From assembly GCA_026390695.1 (NCBI GenBank), contig JAPLFL010000092.1, positions 1-64,000 of the forward strand: a DNA stretch of 64,000 nucleotides, in the 5' to 3' direction. This DNA is from Candidatus Kapaibacterium sp. (GTDB taxonomy: Bacteria; Bacteroidota; Ignavibacteria; Kapaibacteriales; UBA2268). The translations under genes were made by a program, and so were the position numbers. This document shows, piece after piece, positions 2,511-63,011 of the stretch. Within the stretch, counting starts at the first letter, position 1. The number at the start of each line of letters is the position of its first letter. The notes beneath the pieces were generated by a model. The model saw only the letters and a list, made by a program, of their open reading frames with translations, was not told where the DNA came from and did not search any database.

Positions 2511-3506
2511 ATGAATCCAACTCATTTTATATGGAATGTGCATCCGACCGTAATTTCAATCGGACCTTTTTTAATTAATACAATATATCTGAGAATCGCT
2601 CTGTCTGCATTGCTAATAGGACAATTATTATATTATTTTATTAATATAAACAAGCTTGAAAAAAGTCGCAAAGATAATCTTTCATTATATATCATTTTGA
2701 ATTTTTTAATAATTATCACATTTCAATTTATTATAGCTAATCCCCTGAAATTCCACCCTGAGGTGCGCTGGTATGGATTATTGTTTGCTTTAGCGTTTAT
2801 ATTATGTTATTGGGTACTGCATTATGTCTATGTGCGAGAAGCCAAGCCACTGAAACAATTGGAAGTTTTGACAATTTATCTGATAACTGGAACTGTTTTA
2901 GGCGCCAGACTTGGGCATTGTCTATTTTATGAAGGAGCTTATTATCTTGCCAATCCGGTAGAAATTCTTTTTATATGGAACGGCGGACTCGCAAGCCACG
3001 GCGCTGGAATAGGAGTAACTTTATCTGTAATTTTATTTGCTTATCGGTACGGGAAAAGCGAACTGGTTTGGCTTATGGACAGGGTTTCCTTGGTCGTGCC
3101 TATAGCAGCAACATGTGTAAGATTGGGCAATTTTTTCAATTCCGAGATAATCGGTCGTCCGGCAGATGTTGCTTGGGCAGTTGTTTTTGCAAGATTAAAT
3201 GATGCAACTCCACGTCATCCGTCTCAGCTTTATGAAGCAATTGCTTATATTTTGATATTTATTTTCCTTTTTATAACTTATAAATCCTTTAAAACTGAAA
3301 TACCTAAAGGCAGAATAACCGGTTATTTCCTTACATTTTTATTCAGTGCTCGCTTTCTGATTGAATTTTTCAAAGAAAGGCAGGTCCCGTTTGAGCAATC
3401 TATGTCCGTTGATATGGGGCAGTTACTCAGTTTACCTTTCATAGCATTTGGTATCTTTATGCTGTGGTGGTCGTTCAGGAAAAAGACATTGAATGATGAG
3501 TTATGA
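2511..3506 (+). CDS. lgt: Prolipoprotein diacylglyceryl transferase with an atypical N-terminal insertion
   Basis: VRWYGLLFALAF, GARLGHCLFYE, GGLASHGAGIG, RLGNFFNSEIIGRP, HPSQLYEA motifs. Confidence 0.93.
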   Translation: MNPTHFIWNVHPTVISIGPFLINTIYLRIALSALLIGQLLYYFININKLEKSRKDNLSLYIILNFLIIITFQFIIANPLKFHPEVRWYGLLFALAFILCYWVLHYVYVREAKPLKQLEVLTIYLITGTVLGARLGHCLFYEGAYYLANPVEILFIWNGGLASHGAGIGVTLSVILFAYRYGKSELVWLMDRVSLVVPIAATCVRLGNFFNSEIIGRPADVAWAVVFARLNDATPRHPSQLYEAIAYILIFIFLFITYKSFKTEIPKGRITGYFLTFLFSARFLIEFFKERQVPFEQSMSVDMGQLLSLPFIAFGIFMLWWSFRKKTLNDEL

Positions 3507-3593
3507 GTTAGGAGTTATAAGTTATGAGTTAGGAGTTATGAGTTAGGAGTTATAAATTATGAGTTATGGGTTATGAGCTAGGAATTATGAGTC
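3497..3593. repeat. Degenerate tandem repeat of TTATGAGTTAGGAGTTATAAG type (about 21 bp), starting in the lgt stop codon
   Basis: gttatgagttaggagttataa / gttatgagttaggagttatga / gttaggagttataaattatga / gttatgggttatgagctagga. Confidence 0.85.
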
Positions 3594-12285: not shown

Positions 12286-12381
12286 ATACTACAAATTTAA
12301 GAAGAAAATCTCTTTTAATATAGAAAAAAATTATTTGTAATTGTTAAAGATATTAAATCTCCGATTGATGATTGCGCCCTC

Positions 12382-12453
12382 GTTCCCAAGCTCCTTCTTG
12401 GGAACATCCTCTTCGTTCTGAGCAAACCGTTACCAAGCCGGAGCTTGGAAACG
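12382..12453. repeat. Double-hairpin palindromic element (gttcccaagctcc...ggagcttggaaacg)
   Basis: gttcccaagctccttcttgggaac (12382-12405) and cgttaccaagccggagcttggaaacg (12428-12453); related arms near 61464-61521. Confidence 0.8.
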
Positions 12454-12462
12454 ATGGGAAAA

Positions 12463-12525
12463 AGTTACTGGTGAACATACAAAGTTCAGCATCAGACATA
12501 CTGTAATTTCTTTTTGATGGATTCA
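12463..12525 (-). pseudogene. Truncated 5' remnant of the 41769/60436 gene family
   Basis: Translates MNPSKRNYSMSDAELCMFTSN; intact paralogues read MISSKRTYQFTDAELCMLTSN and MISSTRFYSMSDADLCMFTSN; homology stops about 10 bp before the palindromic element. Confidence 0.85.
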
Positions 12526-12572
12526 TAAATAAACAGTCCTAAATATAAATATAACAAAAATAAATTAAAATC

Positions 12573-12761
12573 GAATAAAAAGCCGTCTGATAAACTTTCG
12601 GAAGCATCCGCCGAGCTTTTGGGATCGTCCGCTGTACTTTCGGGAGCTTATGATGCACTTTCGGGAAGTTCCAAAAGTGCATCGGACGTTCCCAAAAGCG
12701 TAGCGGACATCCCCGAAAGTGCATCGGACGTTCCCAAAAGTGTAAAAGTGGGAAAAATCAT
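12573..12761. repeat. 21-bp tandem array A (about 9 units) with central orientation switch
   Basis: Forward cttttgggatcgtccgctgta, ctttcgggagcttatgatgca; then inverted tgcatcggacgttcccaaaag, cgtagcggacatccccgaaag, tgcatcggacgttcccaaaag. Confidence 0.9.
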
Positions 12762-12841
12762 CAAAATTTATCAAAGAACTTTTTTTAATGTATAATGTAG
12801 AATGTACAATTCAAAATTATGGAAAAGAATTGAAACATTCC

Positions 12842-17540: not shown

Positions 17541-18229
17541 ATCAACCTACAAAATTATAAATTTAACATAAACGAAACGTTTAGAAAATTATTTTATTAA
17601 AATCCTATCAAAAGTTTATAGAATAAAGAAAAATTGTAAATAAATAATTATACCCGTCAAATGAATCATAATATTAATCCATTTCGTTTAATCCATTACC
17701 AGAAAATAGCTGTCTGGAACGTTTTTCTATCTAACAGAATGTAAAATATATTTATCTAATCCACATATCATAAAGACGAATAAATCTAATTCTTCATCAA
17801 CCTTTTGAAAAAGGATGGCAGAAAGGATTTTCTTTTCCTCCAACAGTCATTATTTTGCATTTAACATTAATATTTAATAATCTAATGATCATTTTATTTC
17901 AATAATAATGCATTGATATACAAATAATCATTTTTTAATCATTAATTTTGATTATTTAAGATCATCTAAAATCAATTAATTTATTACAATACTAATTTGT
18001 CAATCTTTTTAAGATAATTTATATTCATCCCTAATCAAAAAAAAGAAATTTAATCCATATTTTTTTTCATAATAATTGTGAATATGAGTATTTGATTTAT
18101 ATATATTTTTAGCGTACCTTTAAAAAATATGAAACATAATAAAAATATTTAAATCTATATAAAATTTATCTATATCTGATGTGAAATATATTTTATCATA
18201 ATAGAAAATAATGTTAACAAACGTGTTTT

Positions 18230-18481
18230 ACGGCTCGTCTAAATCATTTTTTATGTTATCTGAAGTGTTTTTTGTATTAACTAAACGGTCAGATGACGAT
18301 TTTTAGTCGTTGGTTGACGATTTAAAGTCGTTGGTTGACGATTTTTAGTCGTTGGTTGACGATTTTTAGTCGTTGGTTAACGATTTTTAGTCGTTGGTTG
18401 ACGATTTTTAGTCGTTGGTTGACGATTTTTAGTCGTTGGTTGACGATTTTTAGTCGTTGGTTGACGATTTAAAGAGTGTTG
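18230..18481. repeat. 21-bp tandem array B: 9 near-identical units preceded in phase by 3 degenerate units
   Basis: ttgacgatttttagtcgttgg repeated 18293-18481; acggctcgtctaaatcatttt / ttatgttatctgaagtgtttt / ttgtattaactaaacggtcag 18230-18292. Confidence 0.93.
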
Positions 18482-19123
18482 ATTATAATAATTTTTATTG
18501 AGATATAAATAAATTATATTTAGATATTGATAAATATAATTTCAATAAATGAAAGAAATGTATAAATGAGAATGGGTGCAATTAAAATGATTCTATTCTT
18601 TATTTTTACATACTTCCTTGTCCCTTTTTTTTAGAAGAAGAACTAAATGCTGACGTTTTATCTCCTCTTATTCTTATTCCCCCTCAATCAAGAGCTTGTT
18701 AGCTGGTGTGTTTCTTCAATAAATGGAACAAATATTTCAAATCTCCAGCTCCAGATTAGCTTCAATCTCCATCATTATTCATTCATTATGCAATTGCTGG
18801 GTATAATTTAGTTTTCAATGAGCTTATTAAGATATTAGATAATGATTATTAGTAAATATTTATGAATTAATCACCGTTCGATAAGTCAAATTATTGTTAA
18901 TAAAATAATTTATTTATTTAAAATTCAAAAAAAAATCATCTTAACAAAGATGATTATACAAATTTAATAAACTTTTATGAATTAATTGCAAATAAATTAT
19001 ATTTGGATAGGAAGAAATTGGCAATTATTAACTATCGGAAGCTTGAAGATGAGTCGAAAATAGAGATTAATAGTAAAATATTTATTTTAGAAGAAAGAAA
19101 TTTTAATATTTCATTAAATTGTT

Positions 19124-40771: not shown

Positions 40772-41791
40772 ATGCAAAAAAAAGCAGTTATATTAATTAA
40801 TACCGGTTCACCTGATTCATTCCAAATCCGTGATGTTAGGTGCTACTTGTCCCAATTTCTTAATGATAAACGTGTCATTAATTTGCCGTATATTCTTCGT
40901 AAATTCATAGTAAATCTCATCATTGTTCCTTTTCGTGCTCCAAAATCTGCTGTTAAATATAAACAAATCTGGACAAAAAACGGTTCTCCCCTCATCGTTC
41001 ATACTCAGAACTTAGTCAATAAACTACAAAAAAAGATTGATGATGACACAACTGTATTTTTTGCAATGAGATATGGCAATCCATCAATTAAATCTGTTCT
41101 TTCTAAAATCAAGGAATCAGATTTTGAACACCTTACGATTCTTCCTCTTTTCCCACAATATGCTTCATCTACTACCGGTTCGATTTACGAATATATTTTC
41201 AATTCGATTAAAGATTGGAATACATTTCCTTCGATCAATTTTATAAATCAATTTTATGATAATCCCCAATTTATCAATGCTTTCGTTAATCGAATCAAAT
41301 CTTATCAACCAGAGAAATTCGAGCATATAATTTTTTCTTTTCACGGATTGCCTCTTAGTCATTTAGACAATGTTCATCCTAAAATTCCAAATAAAATCTG
41401 CAATTGCAAAAAAATGATGCCAATCACAGGACATGGAAAATTTTGCTATAAAGCATGCTGCTATGAAATGAGCAGATTGTTGGCTAAATCATTAAATCTC
41501 AATCATGATCAATTTACGATTTCTTTTCAATCCCGTATGACAAAAAATTGGATTTCCCCTTTTACTGATGAAATTATTGCAAGCAAAGCTAAAGCCGGTG
41601 TCAAAAATATTCTTGTAGTAGCCGGTTCATTCGTTGCCGATTGCCTTGAAACAACTCTCGAACTTGGTGTTGAATATTCAGCAATATTCAAAACAAATGG
41701 AGGCGAAAATCTACAATTAGTTGAAAGCCTTAATGATTCCGACGATTGGGTTAATGCCCTTATTGCAATTATTCATGATGAAATCGTTTAA
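40772..41791 (+). CDS. hemH: Ferrochelatase
   Basis: VILINTGSPDS; VRCYLSQFLNDKRVINLP; FSFHGLPLSHLD; FQSRMTKNWISPFTDEII. Confidence 0.94.
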   Translation: MQKKAVILINTGSPDSFQIRDVRCYLSQFLNDKRVINLPYILRKFIVNLIIVPFRAPKSAVKYKQIWTKNGSPLIVHTQNLVNKLQKKIDDDTTVFFAMRYGNPSIKSVLSKIKESDFEHLTILPLFPQYASSTTGSIYEYIFNSIKDWNTFPSINFINQFYDNPQFINAFVNRIKSYQPEKFEHIIFSFHGLPLSHLDNVHPKIPNKICNCKKMMPITGHGKFCYKACCYEMSRLLAKSLNLNHDQFTISFQSRMTKNWISPFTDEIIASKAKAGVKNILVVAGSFVADCLETTLELGVEYSAIFKTNGGENLQLVESLNDSDDWVNALIAIIHDEIV

Positions 41792-42437
41792 TTCTCTCCG
41801 AAATCAAATAATTCCTATACTTGGCATCATTTACATCATCCCAGATTATTTTCCCGATCTCGCAATAACTGCTCACCAGCTCATACAATTCATTTCCCTT
41901 CGTAATCCGTTCCCGTGTCTTGAGTTCCCGTTGTTCGTTGGAAGTTGAATTCGCGTATAAAGCCTCTTCAAACAATTGTGTCTCATCCAACAAATCATCA
42001 ATCATCCCGCTGGTCAGTCCTATCGAGCTGAGTTCAGCAAGATAATCCGTTGCTGTTTTTACTGCCAATCTGCATTTACTCAGAAATACCAAGTCACTTT
42101 CCTTTAACACAAAACTTGTATCAAATTTCTTGACCTGAGGCGAACCGACACCCCATTTTATCTTTGCTAACACTACTATCTCTTTTAATTTCAATGTACA
42201 CGAACTCCGCCGAGTTTGTTTAATCTCCATTGCTAATTGACAATCGGCAAAATAATAAGCATCCGACGGAAAAACCTCGAAAGCATTTCCAAGCGCTTCC
42301 ATTTCGGTTACCATCGTAGCTGTTACACCTCGAGCCGTAAATTCAGTTTGATCAGACATCATAGTTTTGACAAGATTACTGGTTAACATGCAAAGTTCTG
42401 CATCGGTAAATTGATAAGTTCTTTTTGATGAAATCAT
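41769..42437 (-). CDS. Family member 1: unknown helical protein, no FN3 domain; 3' end overlaps hemH antisense
   Basis: Homologous along its length to the N-terminal ~200 aa of 60436-61386 (TSNLV.TM..DQTEFT.RGVTA, RITKGNELY..VS.YCEIGKIIW.DV..AKY..Y). Confidence 0.88.
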   Translation of the reverse strand: MISSKRTYQFTDAELCMLTSNLVKTMMSDQTEFTARGVTATMVTEMEALGNAFEVFPSDAYYFADCQLAMEIKQTRRSSCTLKLKEIVVLAKIKWGVGSPQVKKFDTSFVLKESDLVFLSKCRLAVKTATDYLAELSSIGLTSGMIDDLLDETQLFEEALYANSTSNEQRELKTRERITKGNELYELVSSYCEIGKIIWDDVNDAKYRNYLISERIKRFHHE

Positions 42438-42535
42438 GGGAATTTTTTTTGATTAATGGTGAATTATTTAAAATTATTATTTTTCTTGAGAAAGTTTAAG
42501 AAATATTTCGATAAAAATATATACAAAAATAATTA

Positions 42536-42829
42536 TATATACTTTTACATTACTTAGATGCACTTTGGAATTACTTAGATACACTTATGAATAACTTTGA
42601 TAAACTTTTGAAATTAATTGCAACACTTTTTTTATATAACAAAAGCATAACGTACTATGACGAAAGCATAACGTACTATGACGAAAGTATAGCGTACTAT
42701 GACGAAAGTGTAGCGTACTATGACGAGTTTGTAGCGTACTATGACAAAAGTGTAGCGTACTATGACGAGTTTGTAGCGTACAAGGGCGAGTTTGTAGTGC
42801 ACTATAACTAAAGTTCAGCTAAGAAATTC
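42536..42829. repeat. 21-bp tandem array C (about 14 units): 5 degenerate forward units then about 9 inverted units
   Basis: gatgcactttggaattactta / gatacacttatgaataacttt / gataaacttttgaaattaatt, then gaaagtgtagcgtactatgac x8 variants (reverse complement contains gctacactttcg). Confidence 0.9.
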
Positions 42830-44412: not shown

Positions 44413-44691
44413 ATGAATTATATATTATTTTATAAAACTGTTAATGATTATGTTGTCCGCCGCGCGCCATACCGCGATGAGCATTTATCTTACGCTACTA
44501 AATATTTAAACAGAGGCGAACTCTTGATGGCTGGAACGCTCTCAGAGCCGGTCGATTCGGCTGTTTTGATTTTTAAATGTAAAAATCCTTCCCTTGTTGA
44601 AGAATTTGCAAGTAACGACCCGTATGTAGTTAATGGATTAATTTCTGAGTGGACCATCCGTCCCTGGAATGTTGTTCTGGAGCTAAGATAG
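44413..44691 (+). CDS. YciI-like protein
   Basis: RAPYRDEHLSYATKYLNRGELLMAGTLSEPVDSAVLIF...FASNDPYVVNGLISEWTIRPWNVVL. Confidence 0.85.
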   Translation: MNYILFYKTVNDYVVRRAPYRDEHLSYATKYLNRGELLMAGTLSEPVDSAVLIFKCKNPSLVEEFASNDPYVVNGLISEWTIRPWNVVLELR

Positions 44692-44777
44692 TTATGAGTT
44701 AGCAATTATGAGTTTTGAGTTATAGATTACGAATTAATATAAAAGTATTGATATTTTTTACAATTTAAAATCAACCA

Positions 44778-49529: not shown

Positions 49530-49607
49530 ATAACTCATTACTTCTAATTCATAACTCATTACTTCTAATTCATAACTCATTACTTCTAATTCATAACTCA
49601 TTACTTA
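49530..49607. repeat. Perfect 21-bp tandem repeat (ataactcattacttctaattc, about 3.7 copies) overlapping the stop codon of the 49605 (-) gene
   Basis: Units 49530-49550, 49551-49571, 49572-49592, partial to 49607. Confidence 0.95.
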
Positions 49608-50828
49608 CGTCGGATCTACCGGAACATCCACAAAAATCGCCGTACTTGCCGAACTTTCACGGTAATCATTCACCGCAATCAAGTAATAATAGTATCTCTT
49701 GTTCTCAACTGATACATCAGAATACGTATTTGTGCTCGCAAGCTCCAAATATGAATATGTACCAGCAGGCGATCCAACCGTAACGATGCTTCTGTAAACT
49801 TTATATCTCGTCGCCCCCGCAACAACATCCCAATTCAGATTAATAATAAGCGGCGGAGTTGCTCCAGATAAGCCAATAGCTAAATTAGACGGCGCCGAAA
49901 GCGAATCATAATACGCAAATACCAATTCAGTGGCGAAATCTCCAAATCCACCCGAGTTTCTTGCACGAATACGGTATTGCTTTGTCACACCAGATTCAGG
50001 AATATATATAAATGTTGTCGCCGTATCCGAATAAATCTCCATCCATTCAGTTCCATTTAAGCTGATTTCAATCTGATAACTCGTTGCATTCGTTACAGCA
50101 TCCCATGAAAACGTATTTGAAGTGAAATTATAGGCAAAATTAGCCGGAGCTGTCAAACTACCGCCTCCACCACCCGATGGATACAATAAATAAAACTCAA
50201 TTTTTGCCGGAGAATCCTTGAAAATCAATTTAGACATGTTACTAATCTTAACCATCGTGTCCCAAATCTTGTTAAATGCGACCGCACGCTCCTCTGATCT
50301 CGTAAAAGAATGACGAATATAGTCCTGCTGTTCGTTAATATTGTCAGTTAATTCCGTTGCAATCGTATCAAGTAGCGTAATATCGGTTTGAAGGAAGCCC
50401 GATGCAATTAAATCTGCCTTATATGTCGTAGAATTTGCCGTCAGATAGGAACTACTCAGCAGATTTGCCATTTTTTGAGGGACTTTTCTCGATTTTTCAT
50501 ATTGATTATTGCCAAAAGCCAATAATTTTACGTCCGAATCCGGCCACGCAAAGCCAACATAGAGCAACAGCTTCTGATATTGTGCACGCGCAGTCTCCAT
50601 AATTGCTTCAACTTCGGCTGTAATCACCGCTTGTTGATTCAAATCATCATCATTAGTCGGAATAGCGTCAGCTGCTTCGATATCATCAAGGAAATCGGCA
50701 GCAAAAGGCGAAGCAAACATTGGTGATGCAGCAGTAAAAGCTGTTTGATCTACTACCAACTCACTTTGAAATAAGTAAGCCTGAGTTAAACATGCATCAA
50801 ACGATTTGTTAAATTTTTTAGTAATCAT
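49605..50828 (-). CDS. Family member 2: unknown N-terminal helical domain plus two fibronectin type III domains
   Basis: SLTAPANFAYNFTSNTFSWDAVTNATSYQIEIS and APSNLAIGLSGATPPLIINLNWDVVAGATRYKVYRS; N-domain shares VVDQTAFTA and K-I-F-D-SPAKI-Y-LY with members 1/3; ATG at 50828 preceded by ggag. Confidence 0.85.
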   Translation of the reverse strand: MITKKFNKSFDACLTQAYLFQSELVVDQTAFTAASPMFASPFAADFLDDIEAADAIPTNDDDLNQQAVITAEVEAIMETARAQYQKLLLYVGFAWPDSDVKLLAFGNNQYEKSRKVPQKMANLLSSSYLTANSTTYKADLIASGFLQTDITLLDTIATELTDNINEQQDYIRHSFTRSEERAVAFNKIWDTMVKISNMSKLIFKDSPAKIEFYLLYPSGGGGGSLTAPANFAYNFTSNTFSWDAVTNATSYQIEISLNGTEWMEIYSDTATTFIYIPESGVTKQYRIRARNSGGFGDFATELVFAYYDSLSAPSNLAIGLSGATPPLIINLNWDVVAGATRYKVYRSIVTVGSPAGTYSYLELASTNTYSDVSVENKRYYYYLIAVNDYRESSASTAIFVDVPVDPT

Positions 50829-50919: not shown

Positions 50920-51108
50920 AGCGGATTTTGCTTATAATATGGCGGACGTTTCATAAAATATGGCGGAGAACGCATAAAATATGGCGGAGAACGCATAAAA
51001 TACGGCGGAGAACTCTTAAAATATGGCGGACGAACCATAAAATATGGCGGACAACGCATAAAATATGGCGGACGATTCATAAAATATAGCGGATATTGCA
51101 TAAAATAT
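50920..51108. repeat. 21-bp tandem array D (9 units), conserved 16-bp core plus 5 variable bases
   Basis: ggcggacgtttcataaaatat / ggcggagaacgcataaaatat / ggcggacgaaccataaaatat etc. Confidence 0.95.
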
Positions 51109-51264
51109 GTATTTGTTAATGATTCCGGCAATATTTATTATTAATAATCTTTTTATATATCTTGTTCAATGCTTTATCAGAAATATTCCAAAGCATTTTT
51201 CTTTAGATATAATATATGATATTCGTGTGATAAATTATCAAAGAACGATTTATTTCTCTTTTTT

Positions 51265-59646: not shown

Positions 59647-60090
59647 TTCCCCCTTCCAATGCCCCTAAATCTCCCTCCAATATCTTTTTGCTTTGATTGG
59701 ATGGGAGAGGGAAAAGTTCAAATCCTCTGGAAACCCCTCCCTAACCCTCCCCGAAGGGGAGGGAACTGGAACGTTCTTATTCCCTTCCTTGAGGAAGGGT
59801 TAGGGTAGGTGTTCTTCCGTCTTATGATGAACTTCTTCCCCCTTCCAATGCCCCTAAATCTCCCTCCAATATCTTTTTGCTTTGATTGGATGGGCGGAGG
59901 AAAAGTTCAAATCCTCTGGAAACCCCTCCCTAACCCTCCCCGAAGTGGAGGGAACTGGAACGTTCTTATTCCCTCCCCTTCGGGGAGGGTTAGGGAGGGG
60001 TTCTTAATAATTATGGTGAGCTTCTTCCCCCTTCCAATCCCCCCAAATCCCTCTCCAATTCCTTTTTGCTTTGATTGGATGGGCGCGGGA
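59647..60090. repeat. About 2.3 tandem copies of a 189-bp unit
   Basis: ttcccccttccaatgcccctaaatctccctccaatatctttttgctttgattggatggg at 59647, 59836 and (diverged) 60025. Confidence 0.88.
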
Positions 60091-60406: not shown

Positions 60407-60437
60407 TAAATTCATTCATAATTCATAATTCATAATT
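60407..60437. repeat. 9-bp repeat (cataattcataattcataatt) abutting the stop codon of the 60436 (-) gene
   Basis: Direct reading. Confidence 0.85.
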
Positions 60438-61386
60438 AAACCGTAATCACCACTTCCGTCCACGCCTCATCGCTAAAATCACTCAGCGTAGAGCCAGATT
60501 TCGCCCGCACCTTGTAGTAATTACGTTTATCCGCCGTAAAAGACACTCCCTGCGGTGGTGAAGGCAGTTCCGCCAGCAAAGAATACGTTCCCGAAGGCAT
60601 CCCAAAGTTCACCGGACTATGATAAACCTCGTACGAAGCCGCCCCAGATACGTTATCCCAGTTCAAATGAACCTGCGTATCGCCCAGCATCCAATTCGCC
60701 GTCACATTCTGCGGTTTCGACAAGCCCGAAGACGTGCTCCCATAAATAATATAATCATTATACTTCGCTGGACTTACATCCTCCCAGATTATTTTTCCAA
60801 TCTCACAGTATCGCGACACAAAATCATACAATTCATTGCCCTTCGTAATCCTATCCTGCGTCTTAATATCGCGCTGAGTCTGCGCCGACGAAATATCATT
60901 CATCGCATCCTCCATCAGTTGCGCCGTTGCCTCCAAATCATCTACCATTGCTGAGGTTAGACCAACCGGCGTAAGGTCAGTCAGATAATCCGTAGCCACA
61001 ATAACTCCCAAACGACATGTTGTAAGGAATTTCTTATCATCATATTTCGTCATCTCCCCCGCATCAAAGCGCTTCACCTGCGCCGCACCCGATCCCCACT
61101 TAATTTTTGCATAACCAATAATCGCCCGTAGCTTCAGCGTACACGCATCCCGCTGCGTATTCTTCGCTTCAGTTGCCAGCATCAGGTCTGTAAGATAATA
61201 TACATCGGGTGGCAGCACCTCAAAAGCATTACCAAGCGTTTCAAACGCCGTTACCATAAGCGCCGTAACGCCACGAGTCGTAAATTCCGTCTGGTCGCGC
61301 CTCATCGTTACCACGAGATTGGAAGTAAACATGCAGAGATCAGCGTCTGACATGCTATAAAATCTTGTTGAACTAATCATAACCAT
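60436..61386 (-). CDS. Family member 3: unknown helical N-domain plus one fibronectin type III domain
   Basis: N-domain homologous to 41769-42437; LSKPQNVTANWMLGDTQVHLNWDNVSGAASYEVYHS...KRNYYKVRAKSGSTLSDFSDEAWTEV. Confidence 0.88.
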   Translation of the reverse strand: MVMISSTRFYSMSDADLCMFTSNLVVTMRRDQTEFTTRGVTALMVTAFETLGNAFEVLPPDVYYLTDLMLATEAKNTQRDACTLKLRAIIGYAKIKWGSGAAQVKRFDAGEMTKYDDKKFLTTCRLGVIVATDYLTDLTPVGLTSAMVDDLEATAQLMEDAMNDISSAQTQRDIKTQDRITKGNELYDFVSRYCEIGKIIWEDVSPAKYNDYIIYGSTSSGLSKPQNVTANWMLGDTQVHLNWDNVSGAASYEVYHSPVNFGMPSGTYSLLAELPSPPQGVSFTADKRNYYKVRAKSGSTLSDFSDEAWTEVVITV

Positions 61387-61463
61387 TTATTTTTTATTGT
61401 GAAACAAAACAATTAACTGCAAATTAAGTAAAATATTCTTAATAACAAAATAAATATTGTTTA

Positions 61464-61521
61464 TTCCTAAGCTCCAGCTTGGGAACAAAACCAGAATGTT
61501 ATTAGGCAGGAGCTTAGTAAC
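61464..61521. repeat. Palindromic element related to 12382-12453, between family member 3 and its array
   Basis: ttcctaagctccagcttgggaa ... aggcaggagcttagtaac. Confidence 0.75.
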
Positions 61522-61542
61522 AAGCAAAAGAAGTATATTCAT

Positions 61543-61752
61543 CATCCGTTACTATTTCATACCCTTCCGTTGTCATTTCGTATGCTTCCGTTACAGCTCC
61601 GTATGCTTCCGTTACAGCTCCGTACCCTTCCGTTACAGTATCTTCGCTCTACGAAACCTCAACGGAAGGCTACGGAGTTGCAACGGAAGACTACGGAGTT
61701 GCAACGGAAGACTACGGAGTTGCAACGGAAGGCTACAGAATTGTAATATAAG
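61543..61752. repeat. 21-bp tandem array E (10 units) with exact central orientation switch
   Basis: Forward cttccgttacagctccgtatg (61564-61647), inverted actacggagttgcaacggaag (61648-61752); reverse complement of the latter is cttccgttgcaactccgtagt. Confidence 0.95.
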
Positions 61753-61948
61753 AATATTTGATGTCAAAGAACGTGTATTTATTACTAATTTATATCGTAA
61801 TTAAGATATTTTTATAATATTTTTCTTTATCTGATGAATATAAAAGAGCAACAAAAGGATAAATTTAATATTTATACTATATTGAATTATATTCTGAAAT
61901 ATTCTAATTCTTTTCATGAGAATGATCTTTTTTTAAATATGTAATTTA

Positions 61949-62927: not shown

Positions 62928-63003
62928 CTTATCACGTAGTGATTAAATATTGGTAGCAGTTCATTTCCCCCTGGTTTCTCTTATCCCGTAGGGATTAAAT
63001 ATT
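62928..63003. repeat. Pair of 24-bp repeats cttatcMcgtagKgattaaatatt with compensatory stem changes
   Basis: 62928-62951 (atcacgtagtgat) and 62980-63003 (atcccgtagggat). Confidence 0.85.
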
Positions 63004-63011
63004 CAAAAGGC

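Follow-up and report, generated by a model that had tools for sequence, protein, structure and literature searches.

A Mirror-Image Array of 21-bp Repeats Upstream of a Helical-Domain Gene Family in an Ignavibacteria-Type Genome

The Locus and Array E

The window, i.e., the whole stretch of 64,000 nucleotides that was analyzed, is contig 81 of the 4.63-Mb draft genome G000, an Ignavibacteria-type MAG. At 60436-61386 on the minus strand it carries a gene for a protein of 316 aa with a novel helical domain (residues ~14-210) and a C-terminal fn3-like domain. Upstream of this gene lies array E (61543-61752), in which 21-bp units are set on one grid, five in one sense and then five inverted, exactly as the initial annotation had described. 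The gene-proximal half (61543-61647, read on the plus strand) consists of five CTTCCGTTACAGCTCCGTATG-like units starting at 61543, 61564, 61585, 61606, and 61627. The gene-distal half (61648-61752, minus strand) consists of five reverse complements of that unit starting at 61648, 61669, 61690, 61711, and 61732, with the orientation switching at 61647/61648 and the grid unchanged. The outermost and the two central units are degenerate (the unit at 61627 retains its first half only, that at 61732 only part), and “five plus five” is better described as about three to four good copies on each side plus decayed ones.

The inverted arms, 61549-61634 and 61661-61746, are 79% complementary. Folding of the single strand, which had been suggested as a check, gave -111 kcal/mol for the RNA vs. 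-49 kcal/mol for shuffled sequences (z = -14.5; 0 of 200 shuffles as stable), and -114.8 kcal/mol for the opposite strand (z = -11.9); the symmetry of array E is far above chance level. Rfam matches at E were sub-threshold microRNA precursors, which are meaningless given the long hairpin. The gap between array and gene contains a 31-nt inverted repeat (61457-61527) with relatives at two other positions of the sampled DNA, and this repeat may be the source of the longer spacer (158 bp) at E.

Linkage of 21-bp Arrays to a Gene Family

The gene beside array E is a member of a family that has some 50 matches in G000, many of them truncated, and with copies in 10 of the 55 genomes of the GTDB family. 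Its proteins have a helical N-terminal domain, often combined with fn3, and the model shows both helical and fn3-like domains. In structure searches the fn3 domain alone was matched; the helical N-terminal domain had no match at E<0.001, and no fold match supported RNA binding. Searches for Pfam or PADLOC matches and for PDB sequence relatives were likewise negative. Weak, co-linear similarity links the helical domain to DUF6261 (PF19775) and to the “PQLLE family” (NF052641). PQLLE-type relatives share the upstream 21/42-bp arrays, in contrast to DUF6261 loci, which have only weak, short or irregular 41/42-bp spacings.

Array E had been noted as a single feature, which is too narrow a view, as it is one of dozens of 21-base arrays, which lie shortly before almost all genes of this family. 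We surveyed 983 kb of G000, a sample partly picked around family genes and thus biased toward them; both this genome and its relatives are draft MAGs whose repeats come from short-read assembly. Strict arrays with a period of 21n lie upstream of 31 of 33 family starts, vs. 11 of 449 control genes (p = 3e-37), and the period is a multiple of 21 for 64 of the 82 TRF arrays scoring at least 150 in these 983 kb. Of 54 upstream regions taken from G000 and its relatives, 53 were most similar to themselves at a shift of 21 or 42, the exception being G015. Distant helical relatives retrieved with NF052641 (NCBIfam) or a profile also have 21- or 42-bp arrays (G315, G107, G347, G544, G241, G476, G450, G461, and G447), as does a second subfamily, DYIPK, with upstream 21n arrays. 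The linkage of array and gene recurs in other genera, families and subfamilies. Genome G053 contains a single family gene, and the only 21n array in 394 kb is found at that locus; G056, which is without the family, has no 21n array in 400 kb.

Sequence Properties of the Arrays

Excess self-identity was 0.455, 0.46, and 0.40 at shifts of 21, 42, and 63, and near zero at 20, 22, 10, 11, and 7; a 10/11-bp half-turn sub-repeat that had been suspected by eye in E is thus not general. Arrays have a median of about 10 units, lie a median of 100 bp from the start codon, and outside the dyad clade are arranged head-to-tail. One such array (50936-51109, minus strand) lies upstream of the family gene at 49617-50759 (minus strand), with a boxA-like motif at 51238-51246 on the same strand. 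Another stretch of array plus spacer (18110-18543, minus strand) is an orphan copy, 83% identical, of the array plus spacer of the family gene on contig C13, and ends just before the would-be start codon. In 15 of 62 arrays, none of the six frames is open.

Conservation extends to the period, but to the repeat sequence only among close relatives. Array sequences are alike only between close paralogues, and paralogues that are 74% identical can carry unrelated arrays. The extent to which array sequence tracks protein sequence, considered as proof of direct recognition, was too weak to serve (rho = 0.11). A unit core, GGCGGAACGTnTTAACT, is common to three genera in which the array-adjacent spacers are unalignable by eye, so the unit is apparently under selection in that ortholog group.

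Several other repeats were seen in the sampled DNA. Dispersed intergenic tandem arrays with periods of 42, 84, 105, and 189, which are unrelated to the gene family and still multiples of 21, occur at L043:10049-10336, L053:7315-7628, L075:10976-11281, L083:4611-4988, and window positions 59647-60085. Intergenic heptamer-like ATGAGTT/AACTCAT repeats lie at 3496-3592, 44690-44736, and 49530-49606 of the window, the last being a perfect 21-bp array located 3' of a family gene. Between two genes at 62935-63010 are CACGTAGTGATTAAATATTGGTAGCAG / CCCGTAGGGATTAAATATTC repeats of one dispersed family. The relative without the gene family, G056, has a large CRISPR array (L165; G056:C1:600001-620000).

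Origin and Maintenance of the Dyad Arrays

Eight arrays in the sampled DNA are dyads: E, 42k, and 12k in the window, and one each on contigs C110, C25, C83, C61 (weak), and C52 (an orphan). The 42k dyad (42531-42824), with about 5 proximal and 8 distal units, precedes a family gene (41769-42437, minus strand; 222 aa) that has lost its fn3 part, and a boxA-like GTTCTTTGT with one mismatch is found 428 bp upstream of the gene start. The 12k dyad (12572-12760) has 4+4 units, a boxA-like motif nearby (12771-12779, minus strand), and beside it a decayed fragment of a family gene (12356-12538, minus strand; E = 7.8e-5). The largest dyad (L035:3640-4100; about 9+12 units) has no adjoining family gene and is an orphan that outlasted its gene.

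Polarity is identical in all clear dyads, and six of the eight (E, 42k, C110, C83, C52, and 12k) have exactly the same axis phase with respect to the unit; in C25, the phase is shifted by one following a 1-bp indel. Gene-linked dyads form one clade (support 0.997), counting L073, which was put among them by the likeness of its contig-truncated array, in which no dyad is visible; the array of its sister, L075, is head-to-tail. Arms are more similar within a locus than between loci (0.520 vs. 0.456; 1 of 40,320 permutations), and, judged from these similarities, the two arms of one locus co-evolve. Automatic counts of the balance of unit numbers between arms contain noise, and we draw no claim from them. 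Because of the single clade, the shared polarity and axis phase, and the co-evolution of arms, we conclude that the dyad arose once and was then kept. This points to one ancestral inversion that was inherited, with arms homogenized by copying between them or by selection for matching one partner.

The argument that slippage alone cannot yield a dyad, and that the symmetry is kept, is thus supported, and the check proposed for related strains, made here on paralogues, shows that the center does stay fixed while unit numbers differ. Purely head-to-tail arrays in relatives, named beforehand as the sign of a one-off inversion, are the rule in other clades but not in the dyad clade, and we reject a one-off event in favor of a single origin with maintenance across the clade. 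An assembly artifact is unlikely, given that dyads occur independently at eight loci, with variants specific to each arm.

The arms of E, C110, and C25 pair strongly. In 42k, pairing has been lost (folding z = +2.7), so what is conserved in the dyads is not pairing as such, and the median z across 55 non-dyad arrays of the family is -0.39 (all folding statistics refer to nested folding only). Of the long cruciform or hairpin proposed in the initial annotation, the hairpin is a strong predicted fold at E; neither is the function common to the arrays.

boxA-Like Motifs and Predicted Transcription

Beyond array E, on the gene strand, lies a boxA-like GTTCTTTGA (61764-61772, minus strand), a motif also found in the 16S leader of this genome. 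A sigma-70-like site, TTGACA-16-TACAAT (61740-61767, minus strand; 11 of 12 positions match), reads into array E toward the gene; it overlaps the boxA-like motif, and probably no more than one of these interpretations is correct. BoxA has been reported upstream of 16S rRNA and of CRISPR arrays, where it enhances the transcription of repeats that are not translated, and was set 58 or 90 bp ahead of the first repeat of a synthetic array (PMC7862264).

Exact copies of GTTCTTTGA occur upstream on the gene strand at 13 of 46 G000 loci and on the opposite strand at none (0.1 expected), the motif having been spotted at several loci before it was counted, so that the earliest of these cases do not test the hypothesis independently. 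The motif precedes 11 of 33 family starts, vs. 11 of 430 controls (p = 1.8e-8), and 16 of its 46 occurrences in the sample lie no more than 1 kb upstream of a family gene and on its strand. The 16S leader of G000 reads TAATTTTG, 26 bp, CGTTCTTTGAAAA, placed where boxA sits. The strand asymmetry and the match to the 16S leader are the stronger part of the case. An exact boxA is limited to roughly one third of the G000 loci, and there was none in the distant families G241, G476, and G450.

A second motif, TAnnTTTG, is found within 60 bp before the boxA-like motif at 7 of 24 loci (0.94 expected). It is also weakly enriched 40-59 bp before the start codon, which points to a possible second promoter located between the two, so that the gene may be independent of the array transcript. 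Hairpin terminators were found in none of 54 array-gene spacers, and none at E, so array and gene may share a transcript. Since GTTCTTTGA is confined to the gene strand and matches the 16S leader, transcription probably proceeds through the array toward the gene and gives an untranslated repeat RNA.

Another dispersed element (GTTCTTTGAAA ... CACGTAGTGAATAAATATTGGTAGCAA; L057:5560, L077:9067, L085:357, and L034:9671) also starts with a boxA-like motif, and is possibly another family of repeated non-coding transcripts.

Comparison with Known Systems

The layout resembles that of type III toxin-antitoxin systems (ToxIN, CptIN, TenpIN), in which tandem non-coding repeats of locus-specific sequence lie directly upstream of a co-oriented protein gene and are preceded by a promoter; possible promoter elements here are the sigma-70-like site at E and TAnnTTTG before boxA at 7 of 24 loci. 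ToxI repeats are about 36 nt long, however, compared to 21 bp here, and the repeats of this family are mostly unstructured (by nested folding) and present in about 50 copies per genome. A short hairpin terminator between repeats and gene is criterion iii for type III systems (PMC8860590), in contrast to its absence from all 54 spacers. The structure search (E<0.001) likewise did not find the ribonuclease fold of ToxN in the N-terminal domain of the family protein, a helical bundle. As neither the terminator nor the ribonuclease fold was found, we do not assign the module to type III toxin-antitoxin systems despite its layout.

The long untranslated transcript predicted for these loci, behind a boxA within about 100 bp, has its counterpart in CRISPR arrays and rRNA operons, and a boxA matching the rRNA leader does lie upstream on the correct strand at about a third of G000 loci, including E. 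In contrast to CRISPR, the arrays are head-to-tail without spacers or cas genes, and the family protein has no PADLOC match; unlike both systems, units are near-identical within a locus and a protein gene follows directly. Plasmid iterons and parC also consist of direct repeats near two helical turns upstream of a gene, but the arrays of this family are chromosomal, number dozens per genome and were not found on plasmids, and the family protein has no Rep/ParM/ParR-like domain.

Discussion

The linkage of array and gene, the 21-bp period, the non-coding nature of the arrays, unit conservation within one ortholog group, the single origin and upkeep of the dyad with its co-evolving arms, and the strand-specific motif are established. 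On this basis we regard array E as a clade-specific, mirror-image form of a general module of array RNA and protein, with a probability of roughly 45%. The module would comprise, in order, a promoter and boxA, an array of exactly 21-bp repeats (about 6-27 copies of locus-specific sequence), some 60-150 bp, and a gene for a helical-bundle protein. If GTTCTTTGA is a working boxA, transcription would run through the array in the direction of the gene and yield a long untranslated RNA protected against premature termination. The repeat RNA would either work with the downstream protein, with one binding site per 21-nt unit and locus-specific pairing of partners, or control its expression; in the clade of E, it would fold back upon itself. 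Transcription, antitermination, and the partnership of RNA and protein are what we infer. Counted against the module are the restriction of exact boxA to about a third of loci, the possible second promoter near the gene, the unstructured state of non-dyad arrays as RNA, the acidity of most fn3-type proteins together with the lack of a fold match pointing to RNA binding, and the unrelated arrays of 74%-identical paralogues.

An unlikely alternative that deserves attention is that the arrays act as DNA, as upstream operators or architectural sites in which oriented protein-binding sites are spaced two helical turns apart, with the dyads being opposed rows. The exact period, which does not drift to 20 or 22, the core conserved across genera, and the TAnnTTTG between array and start at some loci all fit such sites, and oriented sites fit better than a hairpin the co-evolving arms and an axis phase that is fixed even without pairing (42k). 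Against this reading stand strand-specific boxA and promoter-like sequences on the far side of many arrays, the lack of a half-turn sub-repeat on average, site sequences that are unrelated between paralogues, and the acidity of most fn3-type family proteins (pI ~4.7), which is unusual among nucleic-acid binders. A conserved, exact length rule of 21 bp with non-conserved sequence is unusual for operators, satellites, and coding repeats alike. Should the arrays turn out to be ordinary operators, the module would be less novel.

That the arrays, and with them the inherited dyad, arose mostly as by-products of a mutational ruler, i.e., of genomes duplicating in tandem by steps of 21n, is improbable. 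Very young duplications of 21 and 42 bp (100% identity) do exist, and of 36 tandem arrays located apart from family genes and from recognized orphans, 17 have 21n periods with unrelated repeats (p = 1e-13), one of the 17 adjoining a family fragment and one looking like coding repeats. However, arrays are concentrated upstream of one gene family, their unit core is conserved across genera, and G053 and G056 have 21n arrays only where the family gene is. A two-turn-ruler duplication habit may nonetheless exist in G000 and may have contributed to the arrays.

That array and gene are or were a mobile element, for example foldback-like with arrays as its ends, is very improbable: the roughly 50 dispersed copies, with truncated and array-only forms among them, would suit it, but the copies are mostly old and diverged, the family has no transposase or nuclease domain that we could find, it was absent from the plasmids, phages, and viral contigs searched, and copy flanks show no clean target duplications by eye. 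A repetitive 7-residue peptide, allowed by the divisibility of 21 by three, is hardly conceivable and was rejected, with 15 of 62 arrays open in no frame on either strand and three homologous arrays keeping no single open frame with conserved residues.

The novelty of the module of array RNA and protein rests on failed tests of membership in known systems and on a literature search, covering few subscription journals, in which no description was found. Tentatively, it might represent an undescribed class in Ignavibacteria and their relatives, in which a repeat RNA with its own 21-nt unit, under boxA antitermination, is paired with a cognate helical-bundle protein that recognizes it, with dozens of distinct pairs per genome. 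Transcribed under an rRNA-type leader, the arrays would make up a large, overlooked set of repeat RNAs; untranscribed, they would offer a clean natural system for studying what keeps a ruler of two turns fixed in DNA. An example of inverted arms that co-evolve through many duplications is provided by the dyad clade.
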